From the IMG/VR virus record IMGVR_UViG_3300046167_000709, positions 1 through 64,000 of that record: DNA of 64,000 bases; one strand, 5' to 3'. Below the pieces are notes generated by a model that was not told the origin of the DNA, did not search any database, and saw only the letters and a list, made by a program, of their open reading frames with translations. The position numbers and the translations under genes are program-made. How positions within the stretch are numbered: the stretch's first letter is position 1; every line of letters begins with the position of its first letter. This stretch comes from a virus. Of the stretch, positions 13,801-53,189 are shown one piece after another.

Positions 13801-16392
13801 TCCAGTAACATCACCTGGAGCTTTACTCATAGCTTTAGATACATTGAAAGCAAGTTGCTGCGCTTTTATTATTTGCTGTATTGTTTCAGGATTGCTACTA
13901 GATTTTTTCATTGTATCAAGATACATCATAGTAGAATTTATGTTGTTATGTATCTGATTGTATATTAAGGTTTTTTGATTATTAAATGTTTTAACAGCAC
14001 CAATAGATCCCATACCTCCGCTTAACATTAAAGTTCCAGCAATTAATTCTATTTGTGAATTTAAAAACTCAGAAGACTTAGGTAGAGCTAATCCAAAAGA
14101 AGCATCAGTAACTATATTCATAGCCGCGTTTATTTCTTCTTCACCAAGTTCTTTTAATATATTAACTGTAAACTCTTTTCCAGCTGCTTTAAAACCTTCT
14201 TTAGTTGCTATGTTTTTTAATTTACCTGAAAATATATCTTTTATTTTCTTACCTCCAACTCCTCTTAGAAACTGAGCATCTGGCATTATAGTCTGAACTA
14301 AACCTTCTGTCAAAGAAACAGCACTAGCATACGCAAGCCCACGCCCTCCAAACAATCCTTTAGCTTCAGCATCTTTAACGTTGTCCATTAAAGTTGCTCT
14401 AAAAGTAGCGTCCGCCATTAATATACTGTCTTTTAATTTACTAGAAACAGGTGATAAAACTTTAGACTTAGATCCAAGCCCAGTAATTGTTTTACCTATT
14501 CCTTTTTGAAAAGATGTAACATTACCTTTTCTAACCTCGTTCATTAAATGTAAAGTAAAAGGAAGCATTTGACCGCCAAGTTTTAGGTAATTTCTAGCAC
14601 CAGCATCTGTGTTAAAACCACCTTCTTCAGTTGTGATTTTAAATTTTTCGTCTTCAGACTTAGGTACTAAACTATAATCCGTAAAGTTGTACACTGTATC
14701 TCTCCAAGCGTCATAAACCGAATAATCTTCTTCGTCTGTAAAAAGATCTCCAAAGCCAGCCATTAAAGCGGCAGGAAAACCAATAGAAGCTTTTTTAGCT
14801 AAACCATATAAGCCACCAACAATTTCTCCACCTACAATATCCATTGTGCCATTCCAAAAACCTTCTCCTGAAAAGCTTTCTCTGTAAGCTTCAACTTCAT
14901 CAGATAATTTAAAATTATTTCCCAAGGTTTCTCTAGAAAAACTCATGTTTAAATCTCCTTCAATACTGCTTTTAGTCGCGGCTATATTAGATAACTCTTT
15001 CTTATAAAAACTAAGCTTTTCGTTTCTTATTTTAGAAGTCTCTGTGTAAGTTGAAACTAAGGAATTATAGTTTTGTACTTGCTCAGGAGTGTTTAATCCA
15101 GACTCTTTGAGAGCTGTCATTTGAGAATTTATAGTGTCTAAATCAGAATCTAATTGAATAATATCCTCATCGTATTTTAGTTTAACGTTTTCAAATTGAG
15201 AACTTAAAAATTTAGACTTTCTTTTTATTACAGGTATTTTAAATTTATTTATTAAATCTTCTTTTTCCTGTAAATTAAAAGTTCCTTTAGCTAGTTTTTG
15301 TAAAGATCTTTTGTCTAAAGAATTTACTATATTTAACTCTATCTCATCGTTTATTTCTATAGTTTCACTAGGTTCACTGAAGTCTACACCAAAGCCTTTT
15401 AAAGCAGAGTTTAAATAGTTTGTTACGTCTCCAAAACCACCTCCTGTGCTAGCGTTGTTTCCAGTGTCTTTTCTAAGCTCTTCAAGAGCCTTTGACTGAG
15501 TGTCTGTTAAACCATCTAACTCTTTAATTAACTCTATTTCTTTAGCATTGTTTTCGTCAAAATTAGCTAGCTCTTTAGCTATAAATTGATCTCTAGACGC
15601 TTGATCTTCAAAGTTTTTATTAGCAAATCTAGTTGACTTAGATTCTAGGTCAACTCTTTGTTGCTCTATTTCTTTAAGTTTGTTTTTTTGAGCAGTGTAA
15701 TATGTAAGTTCAGGGCTTTGCTCTATATCTTCTTCTATAACGTCACCAACATATTCCGACATAGGCGGAGCGTAGGTTTGAGTTTCCCATAAAGCACCCT
15801 CTTCTTGATTCACACCTAAGTCTATGGGTTGATTTCTAGCTTCTTGAAGCTCTTTTTTAGTTATATCGTCTCTATGACCTAACTCTAATTGAACTGCTGC
15901 TAAGTTTATTTGAGCATCTTGAGATCCATTGTTTTCACTTAGATTTGACCAATTATCGGTTTCTTGCTTTTTAGTATAGTACTTTATTTTGTTATCGTCA
16001 CCAACCTGCCATTTGTAGTCGTAGTTGTCAGCAGAATAGGTTTCATTTTCCTTCACTACACTGTTCAACTTAGCTGTTTGTTCTGTGTATTGTTTCTGTG
16101 ATTTTCTAGCTTGATCCATCTCTTGATCAGTCATTCCAGGACCAAAAAATCTAGGTTCTTGAGATGCTAATTTTCCACTTCCAGAACTTGAACTCTCGGA
16201 TGCTACCGGGGTTGTTGCTGCAGTCGCATCCTCTTCCACAACAACTTCTGTCTTTACTTCTTCAACAGGTGTTTCAACAACCTCTGCCTCAGCAGTTTTT
16301 GTTCTACCTTTAAATTCTTGAGCTTTAGCAAATATCTCTTCTTGAGATAACCCAGTGTCTTGTAAAGAAGTTACGTATTCTAGTAATGTCAT
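7843..16392 (-). CDS. Giant internal virion protein with HELLH and HAD-like domains
   Basis: A 2849-residue protein, the largest in the genome and about 13% of it. It probably travels in the capsid and is ejected with the DNA, as do the very large internal or ejection proteins of podoviruses. Around residue 988 is DQHELLHHFF, a zincin HExxH motif typical of metallopeptidases. Residues about 1955-2110 form a HAD-like domain: FDFDDTLA (DxDxT, about 1961), VLTAR (about 2039) and FADDH (about 2093). The N-terminus is acidic and disordered and long coiled coils follow. The gene next upstream in the operon order encodes other putative internal proteins. The frame is unbroken across 8.5 kb. Domain calls are by motif only. 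Confidence 0.8.
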   Translation of the reverse strand: MTLLEYVTSLQDTGLSQEEIFAKAQEFKGRTKTAEAEVVETPVEEVKTEVVVEEDATAATTPVASESSSSGSGKLASQEPRFFGPGMTDQEMDQARKSQKQYTEQTAKLNSVVKENETYSADNYDYKWQVGDDNKIKYYTKKQETDNWSNLSENNGSQDAQINLAAVQLELGHRDDITKKELQEARNQPIDLGVNQEEGALWETQTYAPPMSEYVGDVIEEDIEQSPELTYYTAQKNKLKEIEQQRVDLESKSTRFANKNFEDQASRDQFIAKELANFDENNAKEIELIKELDGLTDTQSKALEELRKDTGNNASTGGGFGDVTNYLNSALKGFGVDFSEPSETIEINDEIELNIVNSLDKRSLQKLAKGTFNLQEKEDLINKFKIPVIKRKSKFLSSQFENVKLKYDEDIIQLDSDLDTINSQMTALKESGLNTPEQVQNYNSLVSTYTETSKIRNEKLSFYKKELSNIAATKSSIEGDLNMSFSRETLGNNFKLSDEVEAYRESFSGEGFWNGTMDIVGGEIVGGLYGLAKKASIGFPAALMAGFGDLFTDEEDYSVYDAWRDTVYNFTDYSLVPKSEDEKFKITTEEGGFNTDAGARNYLKLGGQMLPFTLHLMNEVRKGNVTSFQKGIGKTITGLGSKSKVLSPVSSKLKDSILMADATFRATLMDNVKDAEAKGLFGGRGLAYASAVSLTEGLVQTIMPDAQFLRGVGGKKIKDIFSGKLKNIATKEGFKAAGKEFTVNILKELGEEEINAAMNIVTDASFGLALPKSSEFLNSQIELIAGTLMLSGGMGSIGAVKTFNNQKTLIYNQIHNNINSTMMYLDTMKKSSSNPETIQQIIKAQQLAFNVSKAMSKAPGDVTGVEVDLLMEKTELLKEKENVDSSFHGPINEKIAKVDEQIVEINKTKIAESKSRAGAKNISDQIESTLETFSDQAKIDERVKEIKEQGGSVLESTGYGQALVLDGKKVILINDQAQAEDFKYTTDQHELLHHFFLQTFKTNPDAAIKFGQALINEIVNNPDITGGFTFMNRFNEYLSDENYSAENTWEEVIPLLSESLTDGDIVYNKKQDSFWKSIGNKISNLFKNPANQQKLSITFDTGLDAFNFIKDFNDTIQSGGKLTEDQVRIAKEGAKGELVSGDVKIDGRKKGGKAVKALNEAMVDNTKEIESIVAKESKKDTGAIASTSAQDLAVKSKSKEGLTKKEEDNLVEQVQLMAIEALGYKQGKGTVSRDKALGFVNDYIPGILRRFKPVKNIDGKDVPQQISTFVYRNIQPKQAKFYEQEIGTKSVETSISDERQKELESIEDTSRGPAIEVDTDVKLVDNIKIDGKPLDIPFKDKVRGFVTEQLKNVDINSEKFRKQVFKPSKDFVDFIVKDLIGNPKQFREFLNSNPTFYKGLSITDLVAIDDGRVKKGQPRLFTEPNRRLTKQADIEKFMMQGRIPYLTTTQQKAGAVLYNRLNPKVAAVINNFFGSTPQNNSNRKRAIAKAIANKFIAEATPSTEAFKAKPQLDKAKIAERLQVSQQAKFSKRSAGSQYNVDSNVVNAGYKPIKPGVEGVTDLSNFLVDDLTKVFGKNASLFAVASNLAGAGNSYIGSKPTSGAKGRKFLFISDANKTKRYIKETKEALESGELGDLKVINNTISALEGLDAISESDLKAIKQAISSQTIKNIEGNLKNKSLHDKGVRLIIEKLAELYKLDPKNIRGIAAMIYNQNANYSFGRKMAAVLGLEQGVEAGSKSWEEHVYQFGNFANRTLQAISSDNPKVLDGWIKWVNDNYYQEVTGKETQAIVDATYFKDGTTWKAKSEEHPYLHEKLNEAFETGDFSEVPPADIRKYNEYFALNPNNRSINGVSDAAKYNVEVDAKFRNNLDVQAEQQRLIYEQFIGETTAEKAKQDIKVYTELAPGKAMASKRDSDLIPDAIKYDRPITVQTAINALEKTDKSLELARKLDQPVKKIRVFDFDDTLARTKSNVLYTMPDGTTGAIDAATFAKEAGNMEAEGAQWDFSEFSKVMQGSKGPLLDVAKIIAEKRGTKDVFVLTARPADAAGPIKEFLASMGLDIPLANITGLGDGTPQAKAGWIMGKAAEGYNDFYFADDHTGNVKAVKDVLSQIDVKSKVQLAKASKRQTFDTVVNDMIEDSSGIETYKKYSAARAKTVGASKGKYNFLIPPSAEDFTGLLYKMIGKGKKGDAQMAFLKTNLLDTYNRAESAVTQAKISAANDFVALKTKLKTLPKTLSKQTGIGKFTYSHAVRVAAWTKQGMDIPGLSKRDIKELNDFVNKDAKLRVFTDELIKIQKGKEYPKPDKDWLGGNITTDIIGGINKVNRAEYQQEWRENIDIIFSEDNMNKMEAAYGTRWREAMEDSIRRMKSGSNRPIGGNRVTEGLLNWLNNSVGAVMFLNTRSALLQTISAVNFINLGDNNIIKAGRAFANQKQFWGDFMTLMNSDYLVERRNGLKINVSESEIADAVRESKNKPKAAIAFLLSKGFVMTRFADSFAIASGGSTFYRNRLEALKKQGLSDADAETQAFEDFKAIAEENQQSSSPSKISQQQASAAGRVILAWANTPMQYARIQKRAAQDLINGRGDWRSNVSKIVYYGAIQNLIFNSLQQAVFALGFGDDEEETDEAKAKKRNDKAYKVANGMIDSQLKGLGIFGAASAAIKNTLMTLYEEYGKKGSKYENAVDDLLSFSPPLGSKIGKIKGGLRSFSWNMKDIKEKGFSLDNPAYMAGAQVVTGFTNIPLDRVAKKINNLRGLVNERSSLWQKVALGLGWGTWELGLGYYGGFDKKEPLTPKQELQLEVDKMKKDTNKPDQVKTLLDFGLTKKQIRELKNENNRVKKILELQKKDKDEK

Positions 16393-50483: not shown

Positions 50484-50555
50484 TGAAGTGGGCACTCAAA
50501 CTGGATAGGAAATCTGAAGTAATGGTTAATGTGAGTTCGATTCTCACTGCTTCAA
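50484..50555 (+). ncRNA. tRNA-like RNA 4 (T-arm and acceptor, no clear anticodon arm)
   Basis: 72 nt, the usual tRNA length. TGAAGTG and TGCTTCA pair as a 7-bp acceptor with two G-T pairs, and GTGAG-TTCGATT-CTCAC is a perfect T-arm with discriminator A. The D-loop-like CTCAAACTGGATAGG is close to normal. I cannot form a 5-bp anticodon stem with a 7-base loop and U33. It could be a damaged tRNA or a tRNA mimic. It sits directly before repeat R4. Confidence 0.5.
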
Positions 50556-50600
50556 CTACAAACAAAATACGATTATCTTTGGATAATATAATAAACTAAT
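50556..50600 (+). promoter_or_regulatory. Early promoter-like repeat R4
   Basis: CTACAAACAAAATACGAT, then TATCTTTGGATAATATAATA. It contains TATCTTTG, a match to the Bacteroidetes -7 box TAnnTTTG. It lies just behind tRNA-like RNA 4 and before the ORF at 50624. Confidence 0.72.
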
Positions 50601-52712: not shown

Positions 52713-52901
52713 ATGTATTGTAAATGTGGAAATGAAGTACACCCTGTGAGGTTGGAATTAGGTTATAAAACGTGTGTTGAGCACTCGACAACTCAAACAT
52801 ATTCGTATGTACCTATTATCGAGCACAAAACAGGTAATACAATACAAATTGTCAGCCAAGAAGTAAGTGCATCTGTGCACAGAGCTTGGCGGCGTAAATA
52901 G
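52713..52901 (+). CDS. Small zinc-ribbon protein
   Basis: A 62-residue protein with C3-x-C5 and, after a stretch with RLELGYKTCVEHS, a further Cys at 21 and His at 24; this resembles the single zinc ribbon of DksA/TraR-like proteins that bind RNA polymerase. The C-terminus is basic (VHRAWRRK). It may modulate host transcription early in infection. The match is partial: only three Cys are seen. It is immediately followed by the RNA cluster. Confidence 0.55.
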   Translation: MYCKCGNEVHPVRLELGYKTCVEHSTTQTYSYVPIIEHKTGNTIQIVSQEVSASVHRAWRRK

Positions 52902-52916
52902 CTAGATAAATCTAGC
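52901..52916 (+). other. Perfect hairpin with TAAA loop before RNA 1
   Basis: GCTAGA-TAAA-TCTAGC: a 6-bp stem with a 4-base loop starting at the last base of the zinc-ribbon stop codon. A second TAAA hairpin (CGCA-TAAA-TGCG) lies inside RNA 2 at 53066-53077. It may protect or process the RNA transcript. Confidence 0.55.
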
Positions 52917-52919
52917 GGC

Positions 52920-53005
52920 AACTAGGTATGGATGCAACAGGAGTTATTAAATTAACCAGAGTTCATTACTGCGACGGCATGAGAGTTCGATTCTCTCACT
53001 AGTTA
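52920..53005 (+). ncRNA. tRNA-like RNA 1
   Basis: 86 nt. AACTAG pairs with CTAGTT (6 bp, the seventh G-A mismatched) and GAGAG-TTCGATT-CTCTC is a perfect 5-bp T-arm with a 7-base loop. The middle does not give a regular cloverleaf: possible hairpins are GTTA/TAAC around TTAAAT and CAG/CTG around AGTTCATTA. Length would suit a class II tRNA (Leu type) damaged by an extra base. It is first of three tandem RNAs 6 and 5 bases apart. Confidence 0.5.
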
Positions 53006-53011
53006 CAAATC

Positions 53012-53090
53012 GTACAGTATCACGGGTTGCAGAGTAATTAACTGCATGCACGGTGGAAGTCCGATCGCATAAATGCGGAGATAACTGTAC
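53012..53090 (+). ncRNA. Acceptor-stem RNA 2 without a T-arm
   Basis: 79 nt closed by a perfect 7-bp stem (GTACAGT with ACTGTAC). Inside are TGCAG/CTGCA around a 9-base loop and CGCA/TGCG around TAAA, but no T-arm. It sits exactly between two RNAs that do have T-arms. It could be a degenerate tRNA or another small structured RNA. Confidence 0.4.
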
Positions 53091-53095
53091 TTTTT

Positions 53096-53173
53096 GGGGG
53101 TGATTTGGTTTTGACGTGATAGAAAGCCTATATGGAACTATTACGGAAGACAGTTCGAATCTGTCCACCTCCA
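53096..53173 (+). ncRNA. RNA 3, tRNA/tmRNA tRNA-like-domain mimic
   Basis: 78 nt. GGGGGTG pairs with CACCTCC (one G-T), GACAG-TTCGAAT-CTGTC is a perfect T-arm, and the D region reads TTGGTTTTGACG without a stem, as in tmRNA where GG-TTTCGACG follows the acceptor. TGATAG with CTATTA (one G-T pair) makes the helix that in tmRNA leads to the mRNA-like domain, but here it closes a 15-base loop. So it looks like the tRNA-like domain of tmRNA with the rest removed. The 3' end reads ACTA, not ACCA. Confidence 0.5.
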
Positions 53174-53189
53174 CTAAAACAAATAAATT

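Follow-up and report, generated by a model that had tools for sequence, protein, structure and literature searches.

A predicted phage-encoded tmRNA consisting of the tRNA-like domain alone, and a large viral family of the same size class

Identity and anatomy of the RNA

The stretch of DNA analyzed here (the window) is 64,000 nucleotides long and comprises positions 1 to 64,000 of the IMG/VR virus record IMGVR_UViG_3300046167_000709, a virus contig of 66,242 bases. At positions 53096-53173 of its plus strand lies a small RNA for which an earlier note had claimed a resemblance to the tRNA-like domain (TLD) of transfer-messenger RNA (tmRNA) without the mRNA-like domain (MLD). As judged from its sequence, the RNA is a virus-encoded tmRNA TLD that lacks the MLD, and we call it a mini-tmRNA; these positions give the mature RNA without CCA and are supported by a match to an RNA family model, by the predicted fold, and by membership in a family found on at least 174 viral contigs. 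When the window was compared with all Rfam families using cmscan, the sole match above any curated cut-off was to the tmRNA family RF00023 (53096-53176, plus strand, 65.7 bits against a cut-off of 47, E value of 2.3e-23). The match covers model positions 1-374, of which 304 internal positions, the MLD among them, are deleted and replaced by 11 nt. A permissive search of the region from 49 to 58 kb (E ≤ 1) returned this match only, with no competing tRNA family. The claim is thereby upheld by the tmRNA model itself, and the competing reading as an ordinary tRNA has no model with a better score.

The RNA reads GGGGGTG ATTTGGTTTTGA CGTGATAG AAAGCCTATATGGAA CTATTACG GAA GACAG TTCGAAT CTGTC CACCTCC A, and its predicted fold is that of a tmRNA TLD (-26.8 kcal/mol, z -3.1), with a 7-bp acceptor stem, a stemless D segment, helix 2, and a T arm, all on the plus strand. 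The 5′ strand of the acceptor stem, GGGGGTG (53096-53102), forms seven of seven pairs with the 3′ strand CACCTCC, which together with the discriminator A occupies 53166-53173 and is included in the RF00023 match; G3 (53098) pairs with U70 (53170). The D segment ATTTGGTTTTGA (53103-53114) aligns to RF00023 positions 8-19 and, with the C that follows it, gives the tmRNA signature GG-N-TTYGAC. Helix 2, which in tmRNA leads into the MLD, is formed by 8 bp between CGTGATAG (53115-53122) and CTATTACG (53138-53145) and is supported by the fold, by pairing, and by covariation. It closes a 15-nt loop, AAAGCCTATATGGAA (53123-53137), in which an AAAG loop and a small CC/GG hairpin, with four unpaired bases on the 5′ side, make up an apical element that replaces the MLD in the predicted fold. 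The junction GAA (53146-53148) supplies the tmRNA GGA as G53145, G53146, and A53147, and the T arm GACAG TTCGAAT CTGTC (53149-53165) has five of five pairs. CTA stands at 53174-53176 where CCA would be expected; since CCA is absent from the gene, it must be added post-transcriptionally. Thus, G3·U70, the discriminator A, the stemless D segment, the GGA junction, and the T arm, as features of a TLD, are all present. The order of stemless segment, helix, and T arm is as the earlier note had described it, except that helix 2 has 8 bp instead of the 6 bp given there, and the helix indeed closes a small loop in place of the reading frame. The MLD with its resume codon, tag frame, and stop is absent, as are the pseudoknots PK1-PK4, for which no sequence is left between the two arms of helix 2.

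Several other identities were considered and rejected. An ordinary tRNA is contradicted by the lack of an RF00005 match at E ≤ 1, the 15-nt loop, and the missing D stem, and the site is recognized by ARAGORN as neither tRNA nor tmRNA. A permuted or two-piece tmRNA with the MLD located elsewhere does not fit, as the 5′ and 3′ halves are contiguous and in standard order; furthermore, there is no other match to an Rfam tmRNA family in the window and no second RF00023 match in the record. A pseudogene, an attachment site, or an assembly deletion is contradicted by the covariation and recurrence described below.

A virus-specific family of one size class

A first pattern, which fixed part of the TLD but put no constraint on base 70, on the GGA junction, or on helix 2, was scanned against 2.9 million viral contigs and retrieved 29 further contigs, all with RNAs of 74-80 nt. 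When the gap in the pattern was set to 53-83 nt, one contig was found (109 nt), and four contigs (59-63 nt) were found with a gap of 0-21 nt. The small number of matches at longer and shorter gaps indicates that the family has a defined size and is no continuum of deletions. From two wider patterns came at least 119 and 54 viral stretches, respectively, and the merged family consists of at least 174 viral contigs with 118 distinct sequences, having a modal length of 79 nt and, for the most part, 77-80 nt. These contigs, when linked by at least two shared proteins, fall into 54 components in many unrelated phage groups, a number to be read as an upper estimate of independent groups, many of the contigs being short. 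Each of the 45 records checked holds one RF00023 match above the cut-off, which is always short, and no full-length tmRNA.

The same pattern found no match in 84,980 bacterial and archaeal genomes, in which a full-length tmRNA pattern, used as a control, did match in numbers. On this evidence from sequence searches, the mini-tmRNA family is virus-specific. One R1 match, however, was obtained in genome G071 (39 bits, 114 nt), although R1 is ill suited to full-length tmRNAs.

Two complete sequenced phages belong to the family. Streptomyces phage Shaeky (MT701595, 42932-43010, 59.3 bits) carries its mini-tmRNA as an unannotated gap inside a tRNA array, and that of Stenotrophomonas phage Jojan60 (ON045087, 37725-37804, 61.8 bits) is likewise not annotated, the site being overlapped by an annotated hypothetical coding sequence (CDS). 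Both were found by BLAST with the family member L100 and not by the pattern, and both, independently of the pattern, keep G3·U70, the D-segment signature, and GGA. A blastn search of annotated phages with the window RNA itself gave nothing useful. None of the 174 family stretches was called as a tmRNA by ARAGORN, which probably explains why the mini form has been missed until now, as this program is the usual finder of tmRNA genes. At 24 of the 174 loci, an open reading frame (ORF) on the same strand ends no more than 3 nt from the start of the RNA, for example in L109, L127, and L129, and CCA is encoded in only 30 of the 118 distinct members.

Covariation and conservation

The helices of the RNA are maintained by the family far beyond chance, and the RNA is neither a one-off nor a relic. 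Pairing in helix 2 reaches 94% among 19 distinct sequences, compared to a mean of 60% and a maximum of 78% for shuffled sequences; with a single sequence for each phage group (n = 11), the value is 92%, which none of 5000 shuffles reaches. Across all 118 distinct sequences, 842 of 912 helix 2 pairs are formed against a shuffled mean of 52%, acceptor pairs 5-7 are formed in 310 of 354 cases against 59% for shuffles, and the T stem is fully paired (590/590). The GGA junction is invariant in 22 aligned sequences in spite of being left free in the pattern, and the junction begins with GA in 110 of 118 sequences. In the apical part, 90 of 106 family cores have an internal loop or bulge that is heavier on the 5′ side. 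Distant groups, that of Shaeky among them, have the motif AAAGCC..GG(A) in common, which favours common ancestry or shared function.

The alanine identity pair and possible partners

The keys to recognition by alanyl-tRNA synthetase (AlaRS) are a G·U at the acceptor pair 3:70 and the discriminator A (PMC3968760). The G·U pair, which the earlier note had put forward as a check, is present in the window RNA and invariant in the family: although base 70 was left free, it is U in all 30 members (19 distinct sequences), and a scan that required a base other than U at position 70, with the pattern otherwise identical, found no contig, compared to at least 119 with U. One transition would suffice to turn G·U into G-C and make the stem stronger, yet no such change was found in the scan. 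This is strong evidence, at the level of sequence, that charging by AlaRS is under selection.

No SmpB was found in the 45 mini-tmRNA records, many of which are fragments, so host factors would have to be used, and the pattern is that of an RNA that would work with host SmpB, AlaRS, and EF-Tu. A protein with an RF-1 domain was found in one of the 45 records (L413; G088, 15029-15208).

Genomic setting and likely host

The mini-tmRNA of the window sits among small ORFs, directly after two other structured RNAs. The terminase of the window phage is 44% identical to those of the Flavobacterium elemo phages, and phages of Cellulophaga and Tenacibaculum are more distant; from these relationships, the host is probably a member of the Flavobacteriia.

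The region upstream of the mini-tmRNA (window 52899-53092; L111-L119) holds arrays of structured RNAs whose ends are conserved and whose inserts are hypervariable. Six scaffolds of this kind were seen, one of which, CTAGACGAGTAGCTTAATTAG..CATAAGTGAATTGCTAG, occurs with six different inserts of 39-75 nt. The upstream structured RNAs of the window have no Rfam match, and the arrays could represent a modular phage RNA system. Farther upstream in the window (50488-50567), a T-arm-like GTGAGTTCGATTCTCAC lies near matching acceptor-like ends, and the fold of this segment is no better than that of shuffles. In L094 (4049-4116), a compact 68-nt RNA with G3·U70 and the 7-nt loop CTTGCAA is located about 500 nt downstream of the mini-tmRNA and is possibly a small tRNA-Ala(UGC).

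Contigs with terminases 79-81% identical to that of the window phage contain TLD-like RNAs (L122, 1504-1634; L123, 1504-1608; L121, 900-974), which score 27-37 bits, below the cut-off, and were not counted as family members; that of L123 is without G3·U70. In L122 and L123, TLD-like ends surround long inserts in helix 2, and the L122 insert resembles the insert of a different scaffold in L118.

Proposed function and alternative explanations

From these features, the mini-tmRNA probably jams or bypasses host rescue of stalled ribosomes, a block of host rescue being what the earlier note had suggested. The explanation that we favour on balance, as somewhat better than an even call, is an alanylated decoy for host trans-translation. 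In this mechanism, tRNA-processing enzymes would excise the RNA from the phage transcript and CCA would be added. Host AlaRS would charge it by way of the strictly conserved G3·U70, and host SmpB would bind the elbow of D segment and T loop, whose binding features are present in the RNA. Together with SmpB and EF-Tu, the charged RNA could then compete against host tmRNA both for SmpB and for ribosomes that have stalled at the end of an mRNA. Such a complex could take the nascent chain and would have no reading frame to offer, so that no degradation tag would be added and ordinary tmRNA rescue might be lowered during infection, as suggested by the precedent of Mycobacterium phage DS6A, described below. 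The decoy is favoured because the TLD is kept while the MLD is gone, the helices covary, U70 is invariant, the family is virus-specific, and no SmpB was found in the phage records, and also because a TLD-only RNA is reported to inhibit E. coli tmRNA (PMC4131195, PMC11915505).

Three points weigh against this explanation. A simple SmpB sponge would need no alanine (in PMC4131195, inhibition occurs "whether or not chargeable"), so the strict G3·U70 hints at a role beyond titration, and a ribosomal role, either poisoning or tagless rescue, has to be considered. A plain decoy leaves the conserved apical hairpin unexplained, and the gain of the phage from blocking rescue is not established. The invariant G3·U70 sharpens the decoy idea to one question: why must the decoy be alanylated?

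The main rival, which we regard as unlikely but as a serious contender, is tagless rescue, a productive role instead of inhibition, in which alanylated mini-tmRNA and SmpB would enter stalled ribosomes and take the nascent chain, and a host hydrolase or release factor would free it. Ribosomes would be recycled and truncated phage proteins would escape degradation, as has been suggested for mitochondrial tmRNA lacking the MLD. The strict G3·U70 and the fully conserved TLD suit an active substrate, and mitochondrial tmRNA that lacks the tag frame is found together with SmpB and is believed to help even so (PMC11915505). However, the phages supply no release factor as a partner, the RF-1-domain protein being confined to the single record mentioned above, and TLD-only RNA is inhibitory in E. 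coli according to the account in PMC4131195.

The TLD might instead serve as a tRNA-like scaffold that provides processing, stability, and protein binding, while the apical element does the real job, for instance by binding a phage or host factor. The tightly held length of most members and the recurrence of apical AAAGCC..GG would fit this role, as would the TLD-like ends around long inserts in L122 and L123 and the other modular RNAs upstream. The short members of 59-63 nt, in which helix 2 has a minimal loop and no apical element, argue against it, and a scaffold has no need of an invariant G3·U70; we therefore consider it improbable. Still less credence is given to the view that SmpB is not the target and that the RNA decoys AlaRS or EF-Tu or carries alanine in a nuclease-resistant form: the presence and conservation of G3·U70 and the discriminator A would be accounted for, but Shaeky and Jojan60, which came from BLAST and not from the pattern, retain the tmRNA-specific D segment and GGA, neither of which AlaRS needs. 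A decaying tmRNA remnant, an attachment site, or an assembly deletion can be largely dismissed, for although a full-length tmRNA is present in a relative, Cellulophaga phage phi38:1, and ssrA serves phages as an integration site, there are compensatory changes in three helices and a single size class in at least 174 contigs and in two complete sequenced phages, and, unlike in an attachment core, the 5′ and 3′ halves are both present.

A bolder view, put forward tentatively and as somewhat doubtful, is that the 77-80 nt class, being large, virus-specific, and under strong selection to stay chargeable with alanine, could be a counter-measure by which phages widely reprogram the rescue of ribosomes, with tagless transfer to the phage RNA replacing tag-and-degrade and with the apical hairpin as an active part.

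Comparison with known systems

The window RNA shares with the standard one-piece tmRNA (RF00023) the acceptor with G3·U70, the D segment, GGA, the T arm, and the start of helix 2, but it is 78 nt long as against about 360 nt and has no pseudoknots, resume codon, or tag frame. Full-length tmRNAs are also encoded by phages. The terminase of Cellulophaga phage phi38:1 is 36.6% identical to that of the window phage, which makes it a distant relative, and its tmRNA differs from the window RNA in keeping the tag frame. This unannotated gene (KC821614, 26803-27164; L271, 1501-1862) is 362 nt long, has the ARAGORN tag AQIEANMEAVNAILNLEVAVGV*, and lies at a site where a hypothetical CDS is annotated on the opposite strand. 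Since a distant relative has a full-length tmRNA, the lineage of the window could plausibly have lost the MLD from a phage tmRNA; the mini form may have arisen once or many times, the alignments being short.

The gut crAss-like phage cr10_1 and Melnitz (PMC9004378) encode tmRNAs as well, but these are permuted. The annotated tmRNAs of cr10_1 and cr125_1 (L249, L250) read as permuted, with the T arm first, and that of cr10_1 passes the Rfam permuted model. In Tunturiibacter phage Tunturi_4 (L251), a small RF-1-domain gene (421-768) stands directly upstream of a permuted tmRNA (773-1182), and the pair is a possible rescue module. The CDS-less tmRNAs of jakobid mitochondria and Mallomonadaceae plastids have also lost the tag frame and kept the TLD (PMC11915505); the usual mitochondrial gene is, however, permuted (PMC11915505), whereas the window type is viral and in standard order.

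The wider mini-tmRNA family was not found described in the literature searched, subscription journals being mostly outside the search. In the 2025 tmRNA database paper, 9 of 97,179 sequences are classed as "standard, no CDS" (PMC11915505). In the literature examined, phage control of ribosome rescue was represented by one case, DS6A, and the present data suggest that it is common but has been missed; with Shaeky and Jojan60 as sequenced carriers, the question becomes accessible to ordinary genetics and biochemistry.

A TLD-only phage tmRNA was thus already known from one phage, Mycobacterium phage DS6A (tmID 11587), and according to the accounts of Mao et al. 2009 given in PMC4131195 and PMC11915505, the TLD-only molecule was reported to inhibit E. 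coli tmRNA. The window RNA resembles it in being phage-encoded, with a complete TLD and no tag frame. By published description, DS6A stands beside forms of about 65 bp, whereas the window type has 77-80 nt, bears a conserved apical hairpin, and is spread over many groups of phages. What is new, as set apart by the published descriptions, is the breadth of the family, the 77-80 nt form with its apical element, the virus-specificity, and the strict alanine identity pair.
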